Virus record (IMG/VR): IMGVR_UViG_3300042509_001125
Coordinates: 1-30,197 of that record
From: a virus
DNA: 30,197 bases
Strand: one strand, 5' to 3'
The notes beneath the pieces are model-generated. The model saw only the letters and a list, made by a program, of their open reading frames with translations. It was not told the DNA's origin and ran no database searches. The position numbers and the translations under genes were made by a program. Below are positions 2 to 29,784 of the stretch, one piece after another (positions within the stretch are counted from its first letter, which is position 1; every line of letters starts with the position of its first letter).

Positions 2-3000
2 GGTGACAGTTTAGCGGAAGGTATGCGTACAGCCAATCGGTTGGAGGGGTTGAGCCGTGTGGGTGCGGGGCCAAAGGAAGTTTTGGGGATGCTCCGCCGC
101 TACAGTGAGAATAATAGCTTGTCGGGGCGCAATGTATTTATTGGCACGGGGATGCCGAACATTCCCGAGCAGCGCAAGTTTATTGAAGAGCAGGTTGATT
201 TTGTCCGTCAGCAGGGTGGCAATCCGATATTGATGGGCGTAGGTCCGGGGACCAAGGTCAAACCTACGACAGGCCAGAATGAATTCTTGGCTGATTTATC
301 CAAGCGCAAGGGTTTGTCGTACATGGGTCCGTTGGTTAGTCGGTTCCCTGATATCACCAAAGATCCGATGGGTCTGCATTTGCGCGGTCCGCAGTACCAG
401 CAAATTTTCAAAGAATTTTCCACACCTTCTGCTGCTCCCCAACAGGCTCCGCGCTCCGAGTCGCGTGATATGACCTCCCAGTTTATTGCAGCGGTAATGC
501 AGGCGGAGAGTTTGGGTAAGCGGTATGGTAAGTCGGGGGAGTTGCTGACTTCGCCAAAGGGTGCCAAGGGTGAGATGCAGGTAATGCCGGGGACGATAAC
601 AGACCCCGGATTTGGTGTTCGCCCTGCTAAAGATAATAGCCCAGATGAGATTGCGCGTGTGGGTCGGGATTACGCTGCCGTGATGTTGAAGCGTTATAAC
701 AATGATCCCACGGTTGCTGCGATTGCATACAACTGGGGTCCGGGGAACGCGGACCGTTGGCTAAAGTCGGGGGCCAATTTTAATGCGTTGCCTAAAGAGA
801 CTTCGAATTATGTATCGCGGATCACGGGTCAGTTAGGGATAGCCCCTACGGCGAGGGTTCCGCAAACTTCTCCCAAGCGCGTGGAGACTGCGCCGTCGAT
901 GAAGAAGGTGGAGAGGGAGGACAAGCCGGGATCGACGTTGGAACTTGCCTCGCGGACCGCGCAGCCCCAACAGGATCAGATAACCCGTGCGGACATGGAG
1001 CGTATGGGTCCGGGGTATCAGGCGGCGTTTGCTGCAATGGCATTGGCAGATACTCGTGATGACGATGATGAGTATGACGATGATGAGACTATCTCTGAGC
1101 GGTATTTAGCGCGGCGTGAAGAGGAGATAGCAAGGGAAGAGTCTACGTTGGAGCAGGAGGAGCCTGCACGTACGTCGCCATTAGCGGGTCTTGACTTGTC
1201 GTATCAGTCGCCCTTTGGGGAAGAGCAGCCTGTCATGATGGCAGAGGGTGGGGAAGCCAAGTCCATGCTTCGCCGGATGTATGAGAGTGCGGTTCCTGCA
1301 CAGGTTCGGTTGTTTGCTGAAACGGCGTTGATGCCAGAGGATAAACGCGCAGCTTCTACGATCACGGAACAGGATTTTTCTCCAGATGAGCAGCGTCAGA
1401 TATTGGATGCAATTCAAAAGGCCCGTAGAACAAGAATGCAGGAGCGGGGTCTGGCGGATATAACAGAAGCAGAAATTAGACAAAAAGCACGAAAACAAGT
1501 GCTTCAGAAAAAGTATACAAAACTTTCCCCAGAGACGATGAAGGATTTGGAAGAGAGTTATAAAAAGCGACAAGCAGAGGATGCGTATTTCTTGTCAGGT
1601 AAAGGCACCGTATTTTATGGTGACTATCCAAATGCTTTTACAGGCAAGGTAGGTGCGCCTGTACAGAATCTGAGGGATTCGACATTGGGTAAAGAAGGCG
1701 CGATACGAAATACGCTAGGTCGTTTTGTGTACGAGACAACGCCTGAAGGAAAGATCAACATTAAAGAGCAGTATGATTTTGCGGATGACTTAGTCAAGGA
1801 GATGCACCAGCGTCCTAGTTCGGCGTATGAAGGTATGTCCACCGCGCAAAAATTGAATGCATTGTTGATGGATACACTGCATAACCCACTGGATAAACCG
1901 AATGAGTTGAGACCTAACTCTACTTTTAGCTATGGGATTTCTACTTTACCTAGTCGTGCCGGTAGTGCTTTTATCGGCAACAAGGGTCGTCCGGTTGATG
2001 TAACGATTGATCCCCGCGAAATAATGCCCGGGTATGCGGGGTATGCAAATGGTGGTGTGGTGCGCCGTGCCGAGGGTTCGCCGATAGGAGGAGAGGTTAA
2101 ACCAAGGGGAAGCACCTACACATATGAAGAATACATGGACAGCTTAAACCCCACGCTTCGGCAACAAGCGGGAGCAAGGCTTGCCGATATTACAACCAGT
2201 GGGTTAATTCATATGTATGATGCTGCACGGTTAGCTGAAGGTGCGTTGTCCTCCAAGAAATCAGCAGCTGAAAAAGAGCAGAAGATGTCAGCTGCTCACA
2301 AAATTTATTTGGATACCTTTGGGTTTAAAAACAGACGAGATCCAATAACCGCAGAATATTTTAATCCGCAGGAGCAAAGGGCAATTGCTGAATTGATTAG
2401 GCGCAAAGGGGGCGACAAAGGTTCAATTCAATATAAGGATTACGACGTTAGCAAACGGGTGGCAGATGAACAATCTGTTCTTTCCGGCCAGTTAGATCCA
2501 TATGTTTCTGTAAACAAATCACTGGGCCAGTTTAACTACGAATATGACCCAAAGAAAAAAGCGTATCGAATAACAGATGAATATGATTTCAATCCAATAA
2601 GAGAAGAAGGTCGGTTGATAACTTCTGACACTATGGGGGATTATGTGTCTAGCAGTTCGGGGCTATATAACAAAGCTCGTATTTACGGGGGTAGGCACAT
2701 GCCGCCGGGCACGGGTCGAAAGGTCGATTTTACAGTTGATCCAGTTGTTAATGTTACGCCTCTTTTTAATTCCCCCGTCAAACGTGCCGAGGGTTCTCCT
2801 ATCTACGGTGAAGTAGCGGATTCTGGCCCTATTACGGAAGACACACGCGCAGCATTTCGCAACATGAAGATGCCCGATGTCCGTGATGCACGTGAGGCAT
2901 TAAAGCTACTTAAGAGCATTGGTATGGGGGGCGTAAGTAACCTTGAATCGTTGGCTCGGGGGTCCGTGGCTGGTGTACCGGGCGTGGTGGGAGATGTGGA

Positions 3001-4981
3001 ATCCATATTTCGCGACGACAAAGCACGGCGGTTCGCGACCAGTGAAGAAGTAGAGCGCCAGTATTTGCCTAAACGTTTGACTGCGCCAACAAAGGAAGCG
3101 CAGGGGTTCGTTGAGATAGGCACGGCCATTGATCCGACCATTGCATTGAAAGCGGCCAAGCCCACAGCAAAAGCGGCATTAAAGGCGCTGAAAGAATCAG
3201 GCCCGCAAGTGGAATCAGTTTTAATGGGCAAGGCTCCTGCGGCACAGCCTATGGGAATTATTAGTGAAAGCAGAAAAGCGCTCATGGAAGTCCCCGAGTC
3301 TTCTTTGTTTGTAAGCAGGGTAGATGACTTTGTTGCCTCACAAAAGAATCCAGTGACTAAGCAACAATTGCTTGGCCAGATGAAGGGAAAGTTTAGGGAT
3401 TACGAAGTAGGCCGAGTATCTGAGGCATTGGCGGATTTGCCTGATACTGCCCGCGTGTTGCCCAACGAGTTACTCACAAGAGTTCAGTCGTCATATCCCA
3501 CCAGCAGGCTTAAAACTTATGTGTTGGAGCCCCAGAAAATGGACAGATGGGCTTCTCAAGATAACGTCTATTCTGATCAGCCTGTCGGTGTGGTAAACCT
3601 GCGTTTTGATACGCCGATGGACCAGATATATAGAGATGCAGCCAATAAAGATGCGTTGGAAAGTTTAACTTCTTTGACCAATAGCTCTAGGTTTGATGAG
3701 GTAACTCCAGAGCGCATAGCGGAATTAAAAAATATTATTCAAGGCCTCCCTAGTGCAAAGTCTTTGTCAAAATTATCTTCAGAATTGGATCTATTCCAAG
3801 AGGTAACAAAAAGGGCGAAAAGTTCTTCGGAAGAAATAGATAGTGCCTACAAGGCATATAAATATCCGGCAACAAAAGAAGAATGGAGGCCCGCTATTGA
3901 TGAGTATTTTAAGAAAAACCCCAAAGCTACTTTCCCAGAAGCACAGGAATATGCAAATAAGGCTGTTCAAGAAGCCGCTGATAAAAAGCTAAGAGACTAT
4001 GATATAGATATTCCAGACAAATCTTTGGATCCTGCCGAGTTTTTAAAAATACTTCAGACTAATGCAACTAATAGAATGAAGGAAATTCTGGAAGTTCAAA
4101 GAGGCGCATTTACCCGTTTGAACGACAATGTTCGTCCAGAGATGGAAACGGCGGCTAAAGAGCTGAAAAAAACCTCGTTATATGAGGGCCAGCATACGTC
4201 TTTGACCCCCAAGGGAACTCCAATTGCGTTTTCTCGTTTTGTAGACCATACCGTTAATCTCCCTGATAAAGGTGAGACAAAGGTTATGCACATGATTGAA
4301 CTTCAATCAGATCTGTTTGATGATATTTTTAAAGAAGGTACAAAGTCGGGCAATAGGCAAAAAGACATTGCAGAGATGGCAAAGCTACAGTCTAAAGTAG
4401 ATGACATTGTAAATAGCGACAAGAGGATAAAATCTGCGGCAGAAAAAATAAACCATATCAGGGCATCTTTCCCTTCTACTGCTCCCACTGAAAAGTCAGA
4501 AGAGATCACAAAGATCATCAAACAAAACCCAGAAATTGAAAAAGAATTAGTGGAATATTTGAAACTTACAAGTAGAGAAGGCAAATTAAGGGCAAGATCA
4601 GGATTTGGAAAATACAACATAGAAGAAGCTTTCCCGGGGATGGAGGGGTCCCCTCAGGTTCTTCAACAAATGATGATCAAAAATGCCATAGGCGGGGCTA
4701 TGCAACGCGGGGTGAATGCGGTTACTTTCCCCGGTAAAGAGTCAGCGCAAGCGCAGTTGTATGAGAAGTTATATCCAAACCTAAAGCAAGTAGTAAAGGA
4801 TCTAGGCCCCGGCTTCGATATACGACAAATAGAATTGTATGATGCATTCAACACGCCTTATTCTCATTGGGGCGTTGTATGGGATGATAGCACCGCGAAA
4901 AAAGTCTTAAACCAAGGCATCCGCTTTAATAAAGGGGGCCTTGTCGATAAACAAGACTCCGATAACAGAAAGTTTATCTAA
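2..4981 (+). CDS. Giant multidomain protein: SGNH hydrolase + lytic transglycosylase + duplicated module (5' partial)
   Basis: The reading frame is open to the left edge, so the true start lies outside the window; the ATG at 23 is internal. Residues below are counted from that ATG. Just before it the frame reads GDSLAEG (nt 2-22), the SGNH/GDSL nucleophile block. TGMPN (42-46) fits block III and GLHL (117-120) supplies the histidine. Residues 150-270 are a soluble lytic transglycosylase domain: QAES with probable catalytic Glu162, SPKGAKGEMQVMPGT (177-191) and AYNWGPGNADRWL (235-247). An Asp/Glu-rich linker follows (about 341-385). Then come two related modules, each closing with RAEGSPI-x-GEV (RAEGSP at 682-687 and 921-926). 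The C-terminal ~700 residues are charged and helical, with HMIELQSDLFDD near 1425, and end in FNKGGLVDK. The likely role is peptidoglycan opening during DNA entry or virion maturation. Confidence is high for the transglycosylase, moderate for SGNH, low for the rest. Confidence 0.85.
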   Translation, partial: GDSLAEGMRTANRLEGLSRVGAGPKEVLGMLRRYSENNSLSGRNVFIGTGMPNIPEQRKFIEEQVDFVRQQGGNPILMGVGPGTKVKPTTGQNEFLADLSKRKGLSYMGPLVSRFPDITKDPMGLHLRGPQYQQIFKEFSTPSAAPQQAPRSESRDMTSQFIAAVMQAESLGKRYGKSGELLTSPKGAKGEMQVMPGTITDPGFGVRPAKDNSPDEIARVGRDYAAVMLKRYNNDPTVAAIAYNWGPGNADRWLKSGANFNALPKETSNYVSRITGQLGIAPTARVPQTSPKRVETAPSMKKVEREDKPGSTLELASRTAQPQQDQITRADMERMGPGYQAAFAAMALADTRDDDDEYDDDETISERYLARREEEIAREESTLEQEEPARTSPLAGLDLSYQSPFGEEQPVMMAEGGEAKSMLRRMYESAVPAQVRLFAETALMPEDKRAASTITEQDFSPDEQRQILDAIQKARRTRMQERGLADITEAEIRQKARKQVLQKKYTKLSPETMKDLEESYKKRQAEDAYFLSGKGTVFYGDYPNAFTGKVGAPVQNLRDSTLGKEGAIRNTLGRFVYETTPEGKINIKEQYDFADDLVKEMHQRPSSAYEGMSTAQKLNALLMDTLHNPLDKPNELRPNSTFSYGISTLPSRAGSAFIGNKGRPVDVTIDPREIMPGYAGYANGGVVRRAEGSPIGGEVKPRGSTYTYEEYMDSLNPTLRQQAGARLADITTSGLIHMYDAARLAEGALSSKKSAAEKEQKMSAAHKIYLDTFGFKNRRDPITAEYFNPQEQRAIAELIRRKGGDKGSIQYKDYDVSKRVADEQSVLSGQLDPYVSVNKSLGQFNYEYDPKKKAYRITDEYDFNPIREEGRLITSDTMGDYVSSSSGLYNKARIYGGRHMPPGTGRKVDFTVDPVVNVTPLFNSPVKRAEGSPIYGEVADSGPITEDTRAAFRNMKMPDVRDAREALKLLKSIGMGGVSNLESLARGSVAGVPGVVGDVESIFRDDKARRFATSEEVERQYLPKRLTAPTKEAQGFVEIGTAIDPTIALKAAKPTAKAALKALKESGPQVESVLMGKAPAAQPMGIISESRKALMEVPESSLFVSRVDDFVASQKNPVTKQQLLGQMKGKFRDYEVGRVSEALADLPDTARVLPNELLTRVQSSYPTSRLKTYVLEPQKMDRWASQDNVYSDQPVGVVNLRFDTPMDQIYRDAANKDALESLTSLTNSSRFDEVTPERIAELKNIIQGLPSAKSLSKLSSELDLFQEVTKRAKSSSEEIDSAYKAYKYPATKEEWRPAIDEYFKKNPKATFPEAQEYANKAVQEAADKKLRDYDIDIPDKSLDPAEFLKILQTNATNRMKEILEVQRGAFTRLNDNVRPEMETAAKELKKTSLYEGQHTSLTPKGTPIAFSRFVDHTVNLPDKGETKVMHMIELQSDLFDDIFKEGTKSGNRQKDIAEMAKLQSKVDDIVNSDKRIKSAAEKINHIRASFPSTAPTEKSEEITKIIKQNPEIEKELVEYLKLTSREGKLRARSGFGKYNIEEAFPGMEGSPQVLQQMMIKNAIGGAMQRGVNAVTFPGKESAQAQLYEKLYPNLKQVVKDLGPGFDIRQIELYDAFNTPYSHWGVVWDDSTAKKVLNQGIRFNKGGLVDKQDSDNRKFI

Positions 4982-7780: not shown

Positions 7781-8233
7781 ATGACACAAACCGCGTTGGA
7801 GCAGAAATGGGCACAAGAAGAGAAGGAAAAAGTTCCTTCTTTAGATGATGCTTATTCAGAGGATGGCAGTTTATCTGTTGAAAACCTTCAAGAGTCCGTT
7901 GTGGACCGCATTCCCCAGCCCACAGGCTGGCGCGTCATCATTCTCCCTTACCGTGGGGCAGAAAAAACCAAGGGCGGCATTGTTCTGTCCGACCAAACCC
8001 GAGAAAAGCAGCAATTGACCACCGTTTGTGGCTACGTTTTGGCCGTGGGTGATCTTGCCTACAAGGATGAAGCAAAATTCCCCAACGGTGCGTGGTGCGC
8101 GAAGGGAGATTGGGTGATTTTTGGCCGTTACGCGGGTGCGCGTATTGGCTTGGACGGCGGCGAGATTCGGATTCTCAACGATGACGAAATCTTGGCTCGA
8201 ATTAACAACCCAGAAGACATTCTGCATATGTGA
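7781..8233 (+). CDS. GroES-like co-chaperonin (Cpn10)
   Basis: The 150-residue protein has a Cpn10 fold pattern after a ~45-residue acidic N-terminal extension. Residues 50-60 read WRVIILPYRGA (first strand). The mobile loop EKTKGGIVLSD (61-71) contains the hydrophobic tripeptide IVL (67-69) that in GroES docks into GroEL. VLAVG (86-90), KGDWVIFGRYAGARI (108-122) and RILNDDEILARI (130-141) match the later conserved blocks. GroES is about 97 residues, so the extra length is the N-terminal extension. Phage co-chaperonins such as T4 gp31 replace host GroES so GroEL can fold the capsid protein; the position just before scaffold and capsid genes fits. No GroEL gene is in the window, so the host's GroEL would be the partner. 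The SD AAGGA precedes the ATG. Confidence 0.85.
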   Translation: MTQTALEQKWAQEEKEKVPSLDDAYSEDGSLSVENLQESVVDRIPQPTGWRVIILPYRGAEKTKGGIVLSDQTREKQQLTTVCGYVLAVGDLAYKDEAKFPNGAWCAKGDWVIFGRYAGARIGLDGGEIRILNDDEILARINNPEDILHM

Positions 8234-12138: not shown

Positions 12139-12423
12139 ATGATGATGAAAATGAACAAAAAGCGTAAGAAATCGGGCATGTCGATGGATAAAGGCATGAA
12201 AATGGCCAAATCCACTAAAAAGGGCATGGCGGGCGATGACATGTACAGCATGGACTCTATGCCTATGTCAAAAATGGGTGGCGGCATGATGGGTTATGCC
12301 AAAGGTGGTGATGTCAGCCCACGTAAGAAGATGGCCATGGGTTATGCATCAGGCGGTTCGGTGCAGATGGTTGACTCGCGTGGCAATGGCGCGGCTCGCG
12401 GTAAAAAGACTCGTATCTGCTAA
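12139..12423 (+). CDS. Met/Lys/Gly-rich small protein with Gly-Gly motifs
   Basis: 94 residues of low complexity: about a fifth Met and a fifth Lys in the first 60 residues (MMMKMNKKRKKSGMSMDKGM), then YAKGGDV and YASGGSVQMVDSRGNGAARG. The C-terminus is GKKTRIC. The SD AAGGAG precedes the ATG. The Gly-Gly motifs recur in three other genes here. High basic charge and disorder suggest nucleic acid or virion association. Short basic proteins with the 'GNGAARGKKT' type tail recur in uncultured aquatic phages, to my recollection without known function. Confidence 0.7.
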   Translation: MMMKMNKKRKKSGMSMDKGMKMAKSTKKGMAGDDMYSMDSMPMSKMGGGMMGYAKGGDVSPRKKMAMGYASGGSVQMVDSRGNGAARGKKTRIC

Positions 12424-12425
12424 AA

Positions 12426-12713
12426 ATGGCTTCCCGTAAGGAAAAGCCGATAGCCACTTCGGTCAAGTCGGGCAATTTTCGTCCGACAAAGACCGGAGCG
12501 GGTATGACCAAACAGGGTGTTGCAGCGTACCGAAGGGCTAATCCCGGCAGTAAGTTGCAGACAGCGGTCACGGAGGACAATCCCACGGGCAAACGTGCAA
12601 CGCGGAGAAAGTCCTATTGTGCTCGCAGTGAGGGCCAGATGAAACAGTTTCCGAAGGCAGCGGCAGATCCGAATAGTCGGTTGCGACAGGCCAGAAAACG
12701 GTGGAAGTGCTAA
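12426..12713 (+). CDS. Conserved basic phage protein (DUF6321-like)
   Basis: 95 residues, very basic. The blocks GAGMTKQGVAAYRRANPGSK, RKSYCARSEGQ and the C-terminal ARKRWKC are the hallmark of a small family spread through cyanophages and other aquatic phages, which I recall as DUF6321 (name from memory). No function is established. Two Cys (in SYCAR and at the C-terminus) are conserved, so metal or disulfide binding is conceivable. The gene starts 2 nt after the previous stop with only a weak SD, implying translational coupling. Confidence 0.8.
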   Translation: MASRKEKPIATSVKSGNFRPTKTGAGMTKQGVAAYRRANPGSKLQTAVTEDNPTGKRATRRKSYCARSEGQMKQFPKAAADPNSRLRQARKRWKC

Positions 12714-12956
12714 ATGGAAATGGTACTGTGGAACGCGCTTTTATCCTTCCTGATTGCGGTATGCGGATGGATCGTGCGCGAAAAATCGGCGGAGCTTCAG
12801 CGTATTCAAATTCTTTTGAATCGTACGAGGGAAGAAATTGCCAAGGAATATGTGACAAAAACAGAAGTTCATGCGGATATCAATCGGGTATTGGATCGAT
12901 TAGATCGATTAGACGCCAAGATTGATAGGTTGATGGAGGTAAGAAATGCCAGCTAA
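12714..12956 (+). CDS. Small membrane protein with coiled coil (holin or spanin candidate)
   Basis: 80 residues. One N-terminal membrane segment (VLWNALLSFLIAVCGWIV, about 4-21) is followed by a charged amphipathic helix with heptad-like spacing, ending VLDRLDRLDAKIDRLMEV. This plan fits class III or XhlA-like holin accessories and inner-membrane spanins, and it also fits many small phage membrane proteins of unknown role. The ATG directly follows the previous TAA. No endolysin or outer spanin is adjacent, so a lysis role is unproven. Confidence 0.7.
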   Translation: MEMVLWNALLSFLIAVCGWIVREKSAELQRIQILLNRTREEIAKEYVTKTEVHADINRVLDRLDRLDAKIDRLMEVRNAS

Positions 12957-13278
12957 AAGCGCCAAGCAGAAGAAGTTGATGGATGCGGCAGCGCATAGCC
13001 CGTCTTTTGCCAAAAAGGTGGGGATTCCGACGAAGGTGGCAAAGAAATTTAGCAGCACTAGCAAGGGCATGGAATTTAAAAAAGGTGGGTCTATCAATCG
13101 CGTAGGCGATGCGGTTACCCCTAGTCGTCGTGACCCGGACATTGGCAAGATGATTAAAGAGGTCAAGACCCCCAATGTCAAGCATAGTGGTAAGGCAGGG
13201 CTCAACCAGAGTAAATTTGGGGGCTCAAAAGGAACACGTTATGCTTCGGGCGGCATGGCGAAGAAAAAAGGATGCTAA
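12946..13278 (+). CDS. Basic phage protein with Gly-Gly motifs
   Basis: 110 residues, Lys-rich. The N-terminal region MPAKSAKQKKLMDAAAHSPS followed by FAKKVGIPTKVAKKFSS is a helical module I recognise from many phage small proteins of unknown function. The second half is disordered and carries FKKGGSI and the C-terminal YASGGMAKKKGC. The start overlaps the preceding gene by 11 nt, with GGAGG upstream inside it. Together with 12139-12713 it forms a run of small basic proteins, suggesting a shared role such as DNA binding in the head; this is inference only. Confidence 0.75.
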   Translation: MPAKSAKQKKLMDAAAHSPSFAKKVGIPTKVAKKFSSTSKGMEFKKGGSINRVGDAVTPSRRDPDIGKMIKEVKTPNVKHSGKAGLNQSKFGGSKGTRYASGGMAKKKGC

Positions 13279-27300: not shown

Positions 27301-29784
27301 ATGGCTATTAACGATCAAGGCATCATGGCCCTTCCCACGGAGCAAGCCGCAGTCCCTGAGATCAGTCTTCAGGACTCCTATGGCGCGATGCGCGAGGCCC
27401 TGCAAGAGGCGCGTCCTGACGCGGATATGGAACTGCAAGAGGCGCTGGCCGAGATCAAGTCTGAACTCAAGGATGTCACCGATCAGCAACTAGAAGACCT
27501 GATTGCGGCTATTCAGTCTCTGTACGACAACCCTGAAACCTATGCCCAAGAAGTTGCTCAATTGGCGGCCGATGGGGAGATTGAGGCCGGGGACTTGCCA
27601 GAAGCGTACGACGAAGAGTTCCTAGCTGCCGTGTTGATGGTGTTGATTGATGAGCAACGTTCTCGTCAGTCGGCGGGTATGCCTCCTGAAATGGCAACCA
27701 TGATGCCTCCACAGCAGTTTGCTCGAGGTGGTATTGCAGAGGCGGCAAGAATGCTGGCAAGCAAGGGTCGCCGTGGCGATACCATGCTGGCGCATATCAC
27801 GCCTCGCGAAGCGCGGTTACTGAAGGCGCGTGGCGGCTCGGGGACCATTAATCCGCAGACAGGCTTGCCTGAGTTTTTCCTTAAAAAGATTTTTAAGGCG
27901 GTCCAGAACACGTTTAAGCGAGTAGTCAATGCGGTTAAAACGGTGCTTAAAAGCCCAGTTGGCAGAGTCCTTGGCACCATTGCGTTGGGCATGGTCCTCG
28001 GACCTGCTGTCATGACCATGTTTCCTTCAATGGCGGCGGTGGGAGGAGGACTCACTGCCATGGGCTCCGCAGTTACAGGCGCGTTAGCCTCGGGCACCGT
28101 AGCTGCTCTTTCGGGCGGGGACCTTAAATCCGTTTTGACTTCTGCCGCAGTGGGCTTCTTGGGTGCTCCCGGCGGTCCTGTGGGCAATTTCGTGGGTAAA
28201 TACACTGCCCAAGTAGGTGTGACCAATGCTGCTGCGAATGCTGCGCTTACCGGTGCTATTGTTGGCACTGGCGCAGGCTTAGTATCTGGTCAGAATTTAA
28301 AGGAGTCGTTGAAGAGTGGCTTGACAGAGGGGGTTATTTCAGGCGGCATGGCTTACTTTAGCGGTGCACCGAAGGTGGATGTAGACAATGCGGCAGCTAC
28401 TGCGGCCAGAGATGCGGTGGACACGCAGACATATGTGGATGAGTTTGGAGGCCTCACCAAGCCCGGTAACAAAGGGACAGCGGGTCAAGCTGCGAAATAC
28501 CAGAATATGGATGACGCGATAATGGGCCAAACCCTCGAAAGAGGGAAACAGTATGTTGCCCCTGATGGAAACATAACTACCTTTGTGGGCATGGATAAAG
28601 CTACGGGGGAAAATATTTTTGAAGGTGGCGTTGGCGGGCAGTACAAAAGAAATGCAATTGATATTGTGTCTGAAAGACCACCAGCACAGGCTCCAGTTGC
28701 TGCGGGACCTTCTACCTACAAAGGGACAGAAATACCCACCGATATATTTGCGCCAAAGACCAAAGCTGAGACTTACTTCTCGGGAGCACCAAACCTCCCT
28801 GCTTTAAGTGGAAGAGGAGTGCCGCAGGTTACCCCCGATACTTATTTTCCGGGACCCGTTCAACCACCTAATTTAAGTGGAAGAGGAGCACCTCAAGTTA
28901 CTCCCGATAGTTATTTTTCGGGGCAGGTTCAACCGCCTAATTTAAGTGGAACAGTGGAAGGAGGTGATTTTGTCTCTTCTCCTGCTGTCTCGTCCGCTCC
29001 TTCGCCATACAGGGTCCCTGAGGTAGGAGCCTCACTCAAAAAAGCTATAACACCGGGGACCATGATGGAAGGTTTGGGCGAGTTGTTTATGCCCGGACCT
29101 TCTTCAGCGCAGTACAAAGAAATGATTGATGATGTTTTGGCAAAAAACCCTCGGTTTACGCCAGATCAAGCTGCTGACTATTTAAATAAAACCGGGGCAG
29201 TTCCGGGCATGTTGCGCACCTACGGTCCCGGTGTTGCAGCGGGCATTGGGGCATTAGGTTTATTCGGTGGATTTACGCCAAAAACCCCGCCACAAAGCGA
29301 GTTTGCTGGACAAATGCGCCAGCCTATAGACCTATCTGGCGACCCCAGCAAGTACTATATTCAAGGTCTTCCGGGAGTCCAATACGGCCCTCGAGGCGAG
29401 ATTATTGGTTCCTCCCCAATGGGGCTTCCAGATGTTTCGCAAAATGTTTTGGTGGCAGGACGAAGCTATCTTCCGCCAATGAACAACCCAATGATGTACC
29501 GTTCCCCAATGTTCATGAACCAAGGCGGCTCCATTAGTTCCGTGCCCCCTAGAGGTTCGGCGGGTATTGCTAGTTTAGCAGGAGGCGGATATCCTAGACG
29601 TATCGGACAGATTGAAGGACCGGGGACCGAGACCTCCGATGATATCCCCGCCATGCTTTCAGACGGTGAGTTTGTCATGACCGCACGTGCAGTGCGAGGA
29701 ATGGGCAACGGTAGCCGTCGAAAAGGGGCGAAAAAGATGTATGCGCTCATGCATCAGCTAGAACGTAACGCGGCACGAGGATAA
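27301..29784 (+). CDS. Internal/ejection-type virion protein with Gly-Gly motifs
   Basis: 827 residues. The helical N-terminus (about 1-115) is followed by FARGGIAEAARMLASKGRRG and AHITPREARLLKARGG. A Lys-rich amphipathic stretch (FFLKKIFKAVQNTFKRVVNA) precedes a glycine-zipper-like hydrophobic region (about 222-275) and two further apolar segments near 317 and 641. Three ~23-residue Pro-rich repeats (YF-x-G...NLSGRG-x-PQVTPD) lie at nt 28774-28950. The C-terminus carries FMNQGGSI, IEGPGTETSDDIPAMLSDGE and FVMTARAVRGMG, a motif found in many phage virion proteins. Membrane-seeking segments in a protein with no signal peptide suggest an ejected protein that forms part of a DNA channel. An alternative is a tail-tip protein. 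Confidence 0.65.
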   Translation: MAINDQGIMALPTEQAAVPEISLQDSYGAMREALQEARPDADMELQEALAEIKSELKDVTDQQLEDLIAAIQSLYDNPETYAQEVAQLAADGEIEAGDLPEAYDEEFLAAVLMVLIDEQRSRQSAGMPPEMATMMPPQQFARGGIAEAARMLASKGRRGDTMLAHITPREARLLKARGGSGTINPQTGLPEFFLKKIFKAVQNTFKRVVNAVKTVLKSPVGRVLGTIALGMVLGPAVMTMFPSMAAVGGGLTAMGSAVTGALASGTVAALSGGDLKSVLTSAAVGFLGAPGGPVGNFVGKYTAQVGVTNAAANAALTGAIVGTGAGLVSGQNLKESLKSGLTEGVISGGMAYFSGAPKVDVDNAAATAARDAVDTQTYVDEFGGLTKPGNKGTAGQAAKYQNMDDAIMGQTLERGKQYVAPDGNITTFVGMDKATGENIFEGGVGGQYKRNAIDIVSERPPAQAPVAAGPSTYKGTEIPTDIFAPKTKAETYFSGAPNLPALSGRGVPQVTPDTYFPGPVQPPNLSGRGAPQVTPDSYFSGQVQPPNLSGTVEGGDFVSSPAVSSAPSPYRVPEVGASLKKAITPGTMMEGLGELFMPGPSSAQYKEMIDDVLAKNPRFTPDQAADYLNKTGAVPGMLRTYGPGVAAGIGALGLFGGFTPKTPPQSEFAGQMRQPIDLSGDPSKYYIQGLPGVQYGPRGEIIGSSPMGLPDVSQNVLVAGRSYLPPMNNPMMYRSPMFMNQGGSISSVPPRGSAGIASLAGGGYPRRIGQIEGPGTETSDDIPAMLSDGEFVMTARAVRGMGNGSRRKGAKKMYALMHQLERNAARG
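28774..28950 (+). repeat. Three 69-bp repeats, Pro/Gly-rich
   Basis: Units start at 28774 and 28843, with a partial third at 28912. Each encodes YF-[SP]-G-x-x-x-x-P-x-LSGRG-x-PQVTPD-[TS]. They form a flexible linker inside the internal-type protein. Confidence 0.85.

Follow-up and report, generated by a model that had tools for sequence, protein, structure and literature searches.

A short peptide motif centred on two glycines recurs far above chance in four otherwise unrelated proteins of an IMG/VR virus record of 30,197 bases (the whole stretch of DNA analysed, hereafter the window), and it is confined to genes of the virion or morphogenesis module. The motif is enriched, conserved at the level of the peptide, attached in a modular way to unrelated domains and, where modelled, predicted to be disordered. 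We tentatively interpret it, at a little below an even chance, as a short linear docking tag that would bring interior or ejected proteins to the particle during its assembly.

Results

A Gly-Gly tag recurs in four genes of the window

By comparison of portal proteins, the nearest annotated relatives of the window are phage DSL-LC04 (61%), the Pelagibacter phages HTVC027P and HTVC023P, phage 023Pt_psg01 and the Roseobacter phages CRP-901 and CRP-902. A preliminary description had listed eight aromatic-x-x-Gly-Gly sites in the window. All eight are present and in frame, with coordinates correct to within 1-2 nt, but a ninth strict match, MAEGGEA at 1238, was overlooked, and the site given as FMNQGGSI at 29512 reads better in the register MNQGGSI from 29515. 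The recurrence in four window proteins likewise stands, but the motif reaches beyond them, being widespread in related and unrelated viruses. The genes and sites concerned are as follows.

2..4981, plus strand: giant multidomain protein, 1659 aa, 5′ end lost at the window edge; precedes the portal gene and has an SLT domain and three tags
1238..1258, plus strand: tag MAEGGEA, in an internal linker of the giant protein
2042..2062, plus strand: tag YANGGVV of the giant protein, followed by a second recurrent linker motif, RRAEGSPIGGE
4925, plus strand: tag FNKGGLV, start of the C-terminal tail of the giant protein
4925..4978, plus strand: constant C-terminal tail FNKGGLVDKQDSDNRKFI of the giant protein, conserved in 19 non-redundant homologues with unrelated upstream sequence
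7781-8233: phage GroES-like co-chaperonin in the head gene cluster, with the loop KTKGGIVLSD
12139..12423, plus strand: 94-aa basic small protein with two tags and the tail SRGNGAARGKKTRIC
12295 and 12343, plus strand: tags YAKGGDV and YASGGSV of the 94-aa protein
12426..12713, plus strand: 95-aa DUF6321 protein (Pfam DUF6321, E=1e-12), ending RKRWKC; without a tag in the window
12946..13278, plus strand: 110-aa protein with a predicted three-helix N-terminal head (residues 1-38), a largely disordered tail and two tags, ending KKKGC
13075 and 13240, plus strand: tags FKKGGSI and YASGGMA of the 110-aa protein
27301..29784, plus strand: 827-aa tape-measure-like protein, with PHROG tape-measure matches at residues 753-804 and two conserved blocks beginning with or following a tag
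27718 and 29515, plus strand: tags FARGGIA and MNQGGSI of the 827-aa protein

The pattern of the preliminary description, [YF][AKN]xGG, has seven matches in the window against 1.16 expected, and none of 1,000 within-protein shuffles reached seven; the frequency in shuffled proteins, by which that description proposed to be judged, is thus far below the observed one. Residue enrichment was scored for all residues at all offsets from GG, against shuffles, in 739 non-redundant proteins of related loci that are not Gly-rich. Over-representation was 2.1-2.6-fold for Y, F, M or H at -3, 2.0-fold for A at -2, 1.7-fold for K at -1 and 2.7-fold for V at +3. The refined pattern [YFMH]-[AKNR]-x-G-G-x-[VIA], with the x after GG coded [^GP], was chosen in the light of these proteins, and as this set and the 13 genomes described below overlap, its enrichment there and in the window (nine matches against 0.36 expected, in four genes, with none of 1,000 shuffles reaching either count) is not fully independent; collection-wide scans with permuted control peptides provide the independent check. 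The reversed pattern has one match (0.34 expected), and bare [YF]xxGG is enriched only about twofold. Bare matches in a Gly-rich 1543-aa protein and in a 139-aa protein are ordinary and not the refined motif.

Part of the V signal at +3 comes from the GroES family (KGGIVL), which supplies none of the signals at -3 and -2. The tag might itself mimic the mobile loop of GroES (GGIVL) and hand tagged proteins to GroEL, and GroES genes are indeed annotated in the nearest relatives as well as present in the window. However, the GroES loop lacks the aromatic residue or Met at -3 and the Ala at -2, and it is defined by GG followed by three hydrophobic residues, whereas in the tag positions +2 and +4 are variable and +4 is often charged rather than hydrophobic. 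Chaperonin docking is, in our view, very improbable.

The tag is restricted to morphogenesis genes

Among 13 related genomes or long contigs, the refined motif had 60 matches in 43 genes of the structural class (4.2 expected; none of 100 shuffles reached 60) and none in the 370 genes of the early/replication class (1.4 expected), the classes being set by annotation, homology and position, with labels that are partly positional. In the structural class, the reversed motif gave 5 matches against 4.6 expected and the shifted motif 4 against 4.7. Counted by families (single linkage), the motif occurs in 29 of 231 structural, none of 240 early and one unassigned. The kinds of protein that bear it are the pre-portal lytic-transglycosylase protein, tape-measure-like proteins, DNA-transfer proteins and small basic proteins. 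An equal rate in non-virion enzymes, which the preliminary description had named as its other possible refutation, is thus not what we observed.

Genes were called by a longest-ORF script that misses some small genes, the 95-aa gene included. Three of the 43 tagged structural genes are chance matches in TerL, and a few others are possibly spurious ORFs; the result is unchanged by these. In TerL, the RFRQGG of three phages arises by substitution at a conserved site, RFRQGNF in homologues, and matches in DNA polymerase (HAGGGNLD), portal (HLIGGL) and primase do not fit the refined motif. By the annotation of DSL-LC04, the motif is absent from the large conserved portal, scaffold-position, capsid, adaptor, stabilization and GroES families of the 13 genomes. 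The PHROG profile of genes adjoining tagged small genes is dominated by portal, tail and virion proteins; we did not count it as support, because control neighbours are likewise rich in structural genes.

The peptide recurs across the IMG/VR collection

IMG/VR was scanned with exact back-translated peptides. YAKGGMV was found in at least 120 stretches against 12 for the permuted KAYGGMV, FNKGGMV in 117 against 4 for NFKGGMV, and YAKGGVM in 41. Most in-frame control matches, such as KKAYGGMVKKKQGG and SYANFKGGMV, look like tags of this kind with the register shifted, and the true contrast is therefore larger. The 97 in-frame carriers of YAKGGMV comprise 57 distinct codings (21-mers) and 30 homology clusters once the motif is masked. 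This variation of codons rules out a signal at the level of DNA and indicates that the peptide is what selection acts on. YAKGGMV occurred in 80 stretches, 54 of them in frame, among the genomes of 84,980 bacterial and archaeal species; by inspection, the bacterial matches are ordinary, mostly longer proteins, with no small basic tails among them.

A tblastn search of annotated phages with the 94-aa protein gave no match, a consensus tail gave three records and no plasmids, and searches of the PDB with the 827-aa, 94-aa and 110-aa proteins returned nothing meaningful. In lambda, the single strict match lies in the tape-measure protein gpH, which holds FATGGFT and YATGGYV (tags at 733 and 778). 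gpH is an ejected virion protein that exits the tail ahead of the DNA (PMC10721106, PMC11101478). The classical podovirus T7 has no strict match; the tag is therefore no general requirement for internal proteins.

A constant tail is joined to varying domains

The giant protein matches the Pfam SLT domain (E=9e-12, above the cut-off) and lytic transglycosylases in the PDB, and it carries the lytic transglycosylase domain that marks an SLT-bearing ejection protein; its PHROG matches are to virion structural proteins and to internal virion proteins with an endolysin domain. At 26 of 37 loci the protein encoded just upstream of the portal has the constant tail at its C-terminus; the other 11 lack it by the filter used. 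Nineteen non-redundant examples give the consensus F-A-K-G-G-M-V-E-R-x-x-x-D-N-R-[KR]-Y-L-stop, with E and R at 0.95 and identity of 0.5-1.0 in most tag and tail columns, against about 0.16-0.47 upstream; the examples were chosen for GG near the end, which makes the GG, but not the flanking residues, invariant by selection. Pre-portal proteins join one tail, FAKGGMVERxxxDNRRYL, to varying domains. One virus found by the tag alone (L225) has the same layout, with a transglycosylase-like domain, a FAEGGEA linker and a C-terminal YAKGGMV tail. The giant protein also has two copies (2066 and 2783) of the second recurrent linker motif, R-A-E-G-S-P-x-x-G-E, which in homologues often stands directly after the GG tag (YAHGGVVHRAEGSPMYGEG).

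The tags of the giant protein sit between its domains and near its C-terminus, as they might if a maturation protease cut at or after GG, trimming tails or splitting the protein, and lambda gpH, itself a motif carrier, is cleaved in tail maturation (PMC3224144). However, the conserved VERxxxDNRRYL runs on after the GG as far as the stop codon, the annotations of DSL-LC04, HTVC023P, HTVC027P, 023Pt_psg01 and CRP-901 include no maturation protease, and residues 818-842 of gpH, downstream of both its tags, belong to the modelled part of the mature lambda virion (PMC10721106). We therefore give proteolytic processing a low probability. Nor do the window tags, which are internal or C-terminal, resemble the N-terminal leader ending in GG of C39 peptidase substrates.

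The tag opens a longer block in a tape-measure-like protein

The 827-aa protein matches the tape-measure profiles phrog_23013 (E=8e-7) and phrog_25241 (E=3e-6) through its C-terminal block only (residues 753-804). Its 70 homologues conserve a block led by FARGGIA and the C-terminal GPGTETSDDIPAMLSDGEFV block, whereas the middle mostly reaches about 0.1-0.3; the second tag, MNQGGSI, which precedes the GPGTETSDDIPAMLSDGEFV block, is itself poorly conserved. AlphaFold gave pLDDT below 50 at residues 140-146 and 749-779, so that the first tag is conserved yet predicted to be disordered, where low pLDDT is indirect evidence of disorder only and the alignments behind the models were shallow (70 and 19 sequences). 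By eye, the stretches at 27718-27870 and 29590-29710 resemble an internal duplication (GDTMLAHITPREARLL and TSDDIPAMLSDGEFVM).

These copies bear on the main rival to docking, a structural module. The aromatic-x-x-Gly-Gly would open a block of about 50 residues (YAxGG...GPGT.TSD.IPAMLS.GEFV) of tape-measure or ejection proteins, acting in self-assembly inside the tail or ejection tube, and the copies in small proteins would be detached halves. A C-terminal Gly-Gly...GEFV block is known from PHROG tape-measure families and lambda gpH, where it reads FATGGFTGTGGKYEPAGIVHRG, and it is this block that the 827-aa protein matches. Both tags of the 827-aa protein accompany conserved blocks that look alike by eye, the order YAKGGMV...GPDDG..L..GEYV is found in unrelated viruses, and the fact that the tag opens a longer conserved block in tape-measure-like proteins counts against a free tag, as it may be part of a structural module there. 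However, tape measures are a minority of the tagged proteins, both in the window and elsewhere; the GEFV partner is missing from most small carriers and from the giant protein; and the block is predicted to be disordered at the tag. On this evidence we consider a structural module an unlikely explanation.

Small basic carriers and their neighbours

Of 67 non-redundant small carriers from viruses, 61 have a positive net charge (median +13), and the tag lies no more than 30 aa from the C-terminus in 46 of them (19 expected). In the window such carriers adjoin capsid genes. AlphaFold predicts a helical head for the 110-aa protein and, outside it, a low-confidence tail without secondary structure that holds both tags. 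PHROG virion structural proteins have N-termini that match this head, which also turns up in tagged proteins from other viruses, and tails are swapped, with 110-type heads found on 94-type GAARxxxxIC tails. Some tagged small proteins combine a DUF6496 head (HEFKxGxLHSGSKKGPxVKNxKQAIAIALSEAG) with a YAKGGMV tail (viral contigs L115:8423-8785 and L158:397-891).

With such charge, and with many tails reading RGxGxAxRGxTKG, the small carriers could bind or condense packaged DNA through basic, Gly/Arg-rich aromatic tails in the manner of an RGG box, the motif being a by-product of composition. Yet shuffles that preserve composition do not yield the motif, reversed and shifted motifs with the same residues stay at chance, and the tail of the giant protein is position-specific and not Gly/Arg-rich. 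This makes nucleic-acid binding a quite improbable source of the motif. An aromatic residue beside basic flanks could also suggest membrane targeting, which the preliminary description had proposed along with packaging and processing. The surroundings of the tag are hydrophilic, however (within 20 residues, the best 19-mer has a median Kyte-Doolittle value of -0.04 and a maximum of 0.78), the small carriers are mostly strongly basic, and only 3 of the 67 have a TM-like stretch; a membrane signal can be given almost no credence. Of that description's three suggestions, a signal shared within the virion module holds and packaging or docking fits it best, processing is weakly disfavoured, and a membrane role is disfavoured.

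DUF6321, found in the 95-aa protein, occurs in 34 of 120 loci fetched for YAKGGMV only and in none of 80 bacterial or 80 tape-measure loci, a contrast that is indicative rather than a test, as the control loci span other genome regions. In other viruses DUF6321 proteins adjoin tagged proteins, and some carry an N-terminal tag themselves. The DUF6321 protein is a candidate companion or binding partner of the tagged proteins. Three adjacent small proteins of the window end in Cys: the 94-aa protein (TRIC, stop at 12421-12423), the 95-aa protein (RWKC, 12711-12713) and the 110-aa protein (KKGC, 13276-13278). Cys is the most over-represented last residue in small proteins of portal loci (5.7% against 1.9%) and ends 57 of 67 DUF6321 proteins; a C-terminal thiol link or a metal site is possible.

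Discussion

We favour a docking motif because the tag is degenerate yet position-specific, disordered where modelled, repeated, and placed on unrelated domains within one gene module. Its carriers, putative virion components in this lineage, resemble interior or ejected proteins; shell and vertex proteins are without the tag, and the lambda match lies in gpH. Packaging by docking is therefore the best reading. The tag would be placed in disordered termini and linkers of otherwise unrelated morphogenesis-module proteins, and would be held by one conserved reader at the portal vertex or in the procapsid, with the untagged portal, scaffold and capsid as candidates. The SLT protein, small basic proteins, tape-measure-like proteins and DNA-transfer proteins would thereby enter the particle, multiple copies per protein may add avidity, and constant tails such as GGMVERxxxDNRRYL may be lineage-specific elaborations.

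Several known systems offer comparisons. Encapsulin cargo-loading peptides are short, usually C-terminal and carried on disordered linkers by unrelated cargo, and an HK97-fold shell binds them on its inner face. The tag is likewise a largely C-terminal motif of unrelated proteins on a disordered linker, the disorder being modelled for the 827-aa and 110-aa proteins only, and phage capsid families are present in the window. Its consensus differs, however; the carriers are phage morphogenesis proteins, and binding to the shell is hypothetical. In T4, a short capsid targeting sequence common to several interior head proteins directs them into the prohead (PMC7697877). The tag is common to many families of the structural module, whose interior location is putative. 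The T4 sequence, of about 10 aa, is N-terminal and removed by the head protease, whereas the tag, in most cases C-terminal or in a linker, often occurs in several copies and has further conserved residues after it; none of the window tags is N-terminal. In the Photorhabdus virulence cassette, a terminal peptide targets payloads of unrelated kinds to the lumen of a particle resembling a phage tail (PMC11495950); those signals are N-terminal and an AAA ATPase is involved in loading, neither of which is seen for the tag. The tag looks undescribed as a sorting or docking signal: among open-licence PMC papers we found no published account of it, whether as this motif, as a Gly-Gly virion motif or in connection with DUF6321/DUF6496.

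The same observations might extend to a general virion-sorting code, which we regard as possible but doubtful. Many tailed phages, marine and freshwater ones especially, would label particle-bound proteins with a disordered [YFM]AxGGxV that is read by a conserved assembly component, cargo domains being swapped onto a constant tag. If so, lytic enzymes, effector-like domains and small DNA-associated proteins would be new cargo, and virion or ejected proteins could be predicted straight from the sequences of uncultured viruses. Except in T4, little is known of how assembling phages select their interior and ejected proteins. A tag that can be recognised in sequence by itself would give a handle on the 'hypothetical' virion proteins of environmental phages and on the exchange of cargo between phages, and it may be useful for loading chosen proteins into phage particles.
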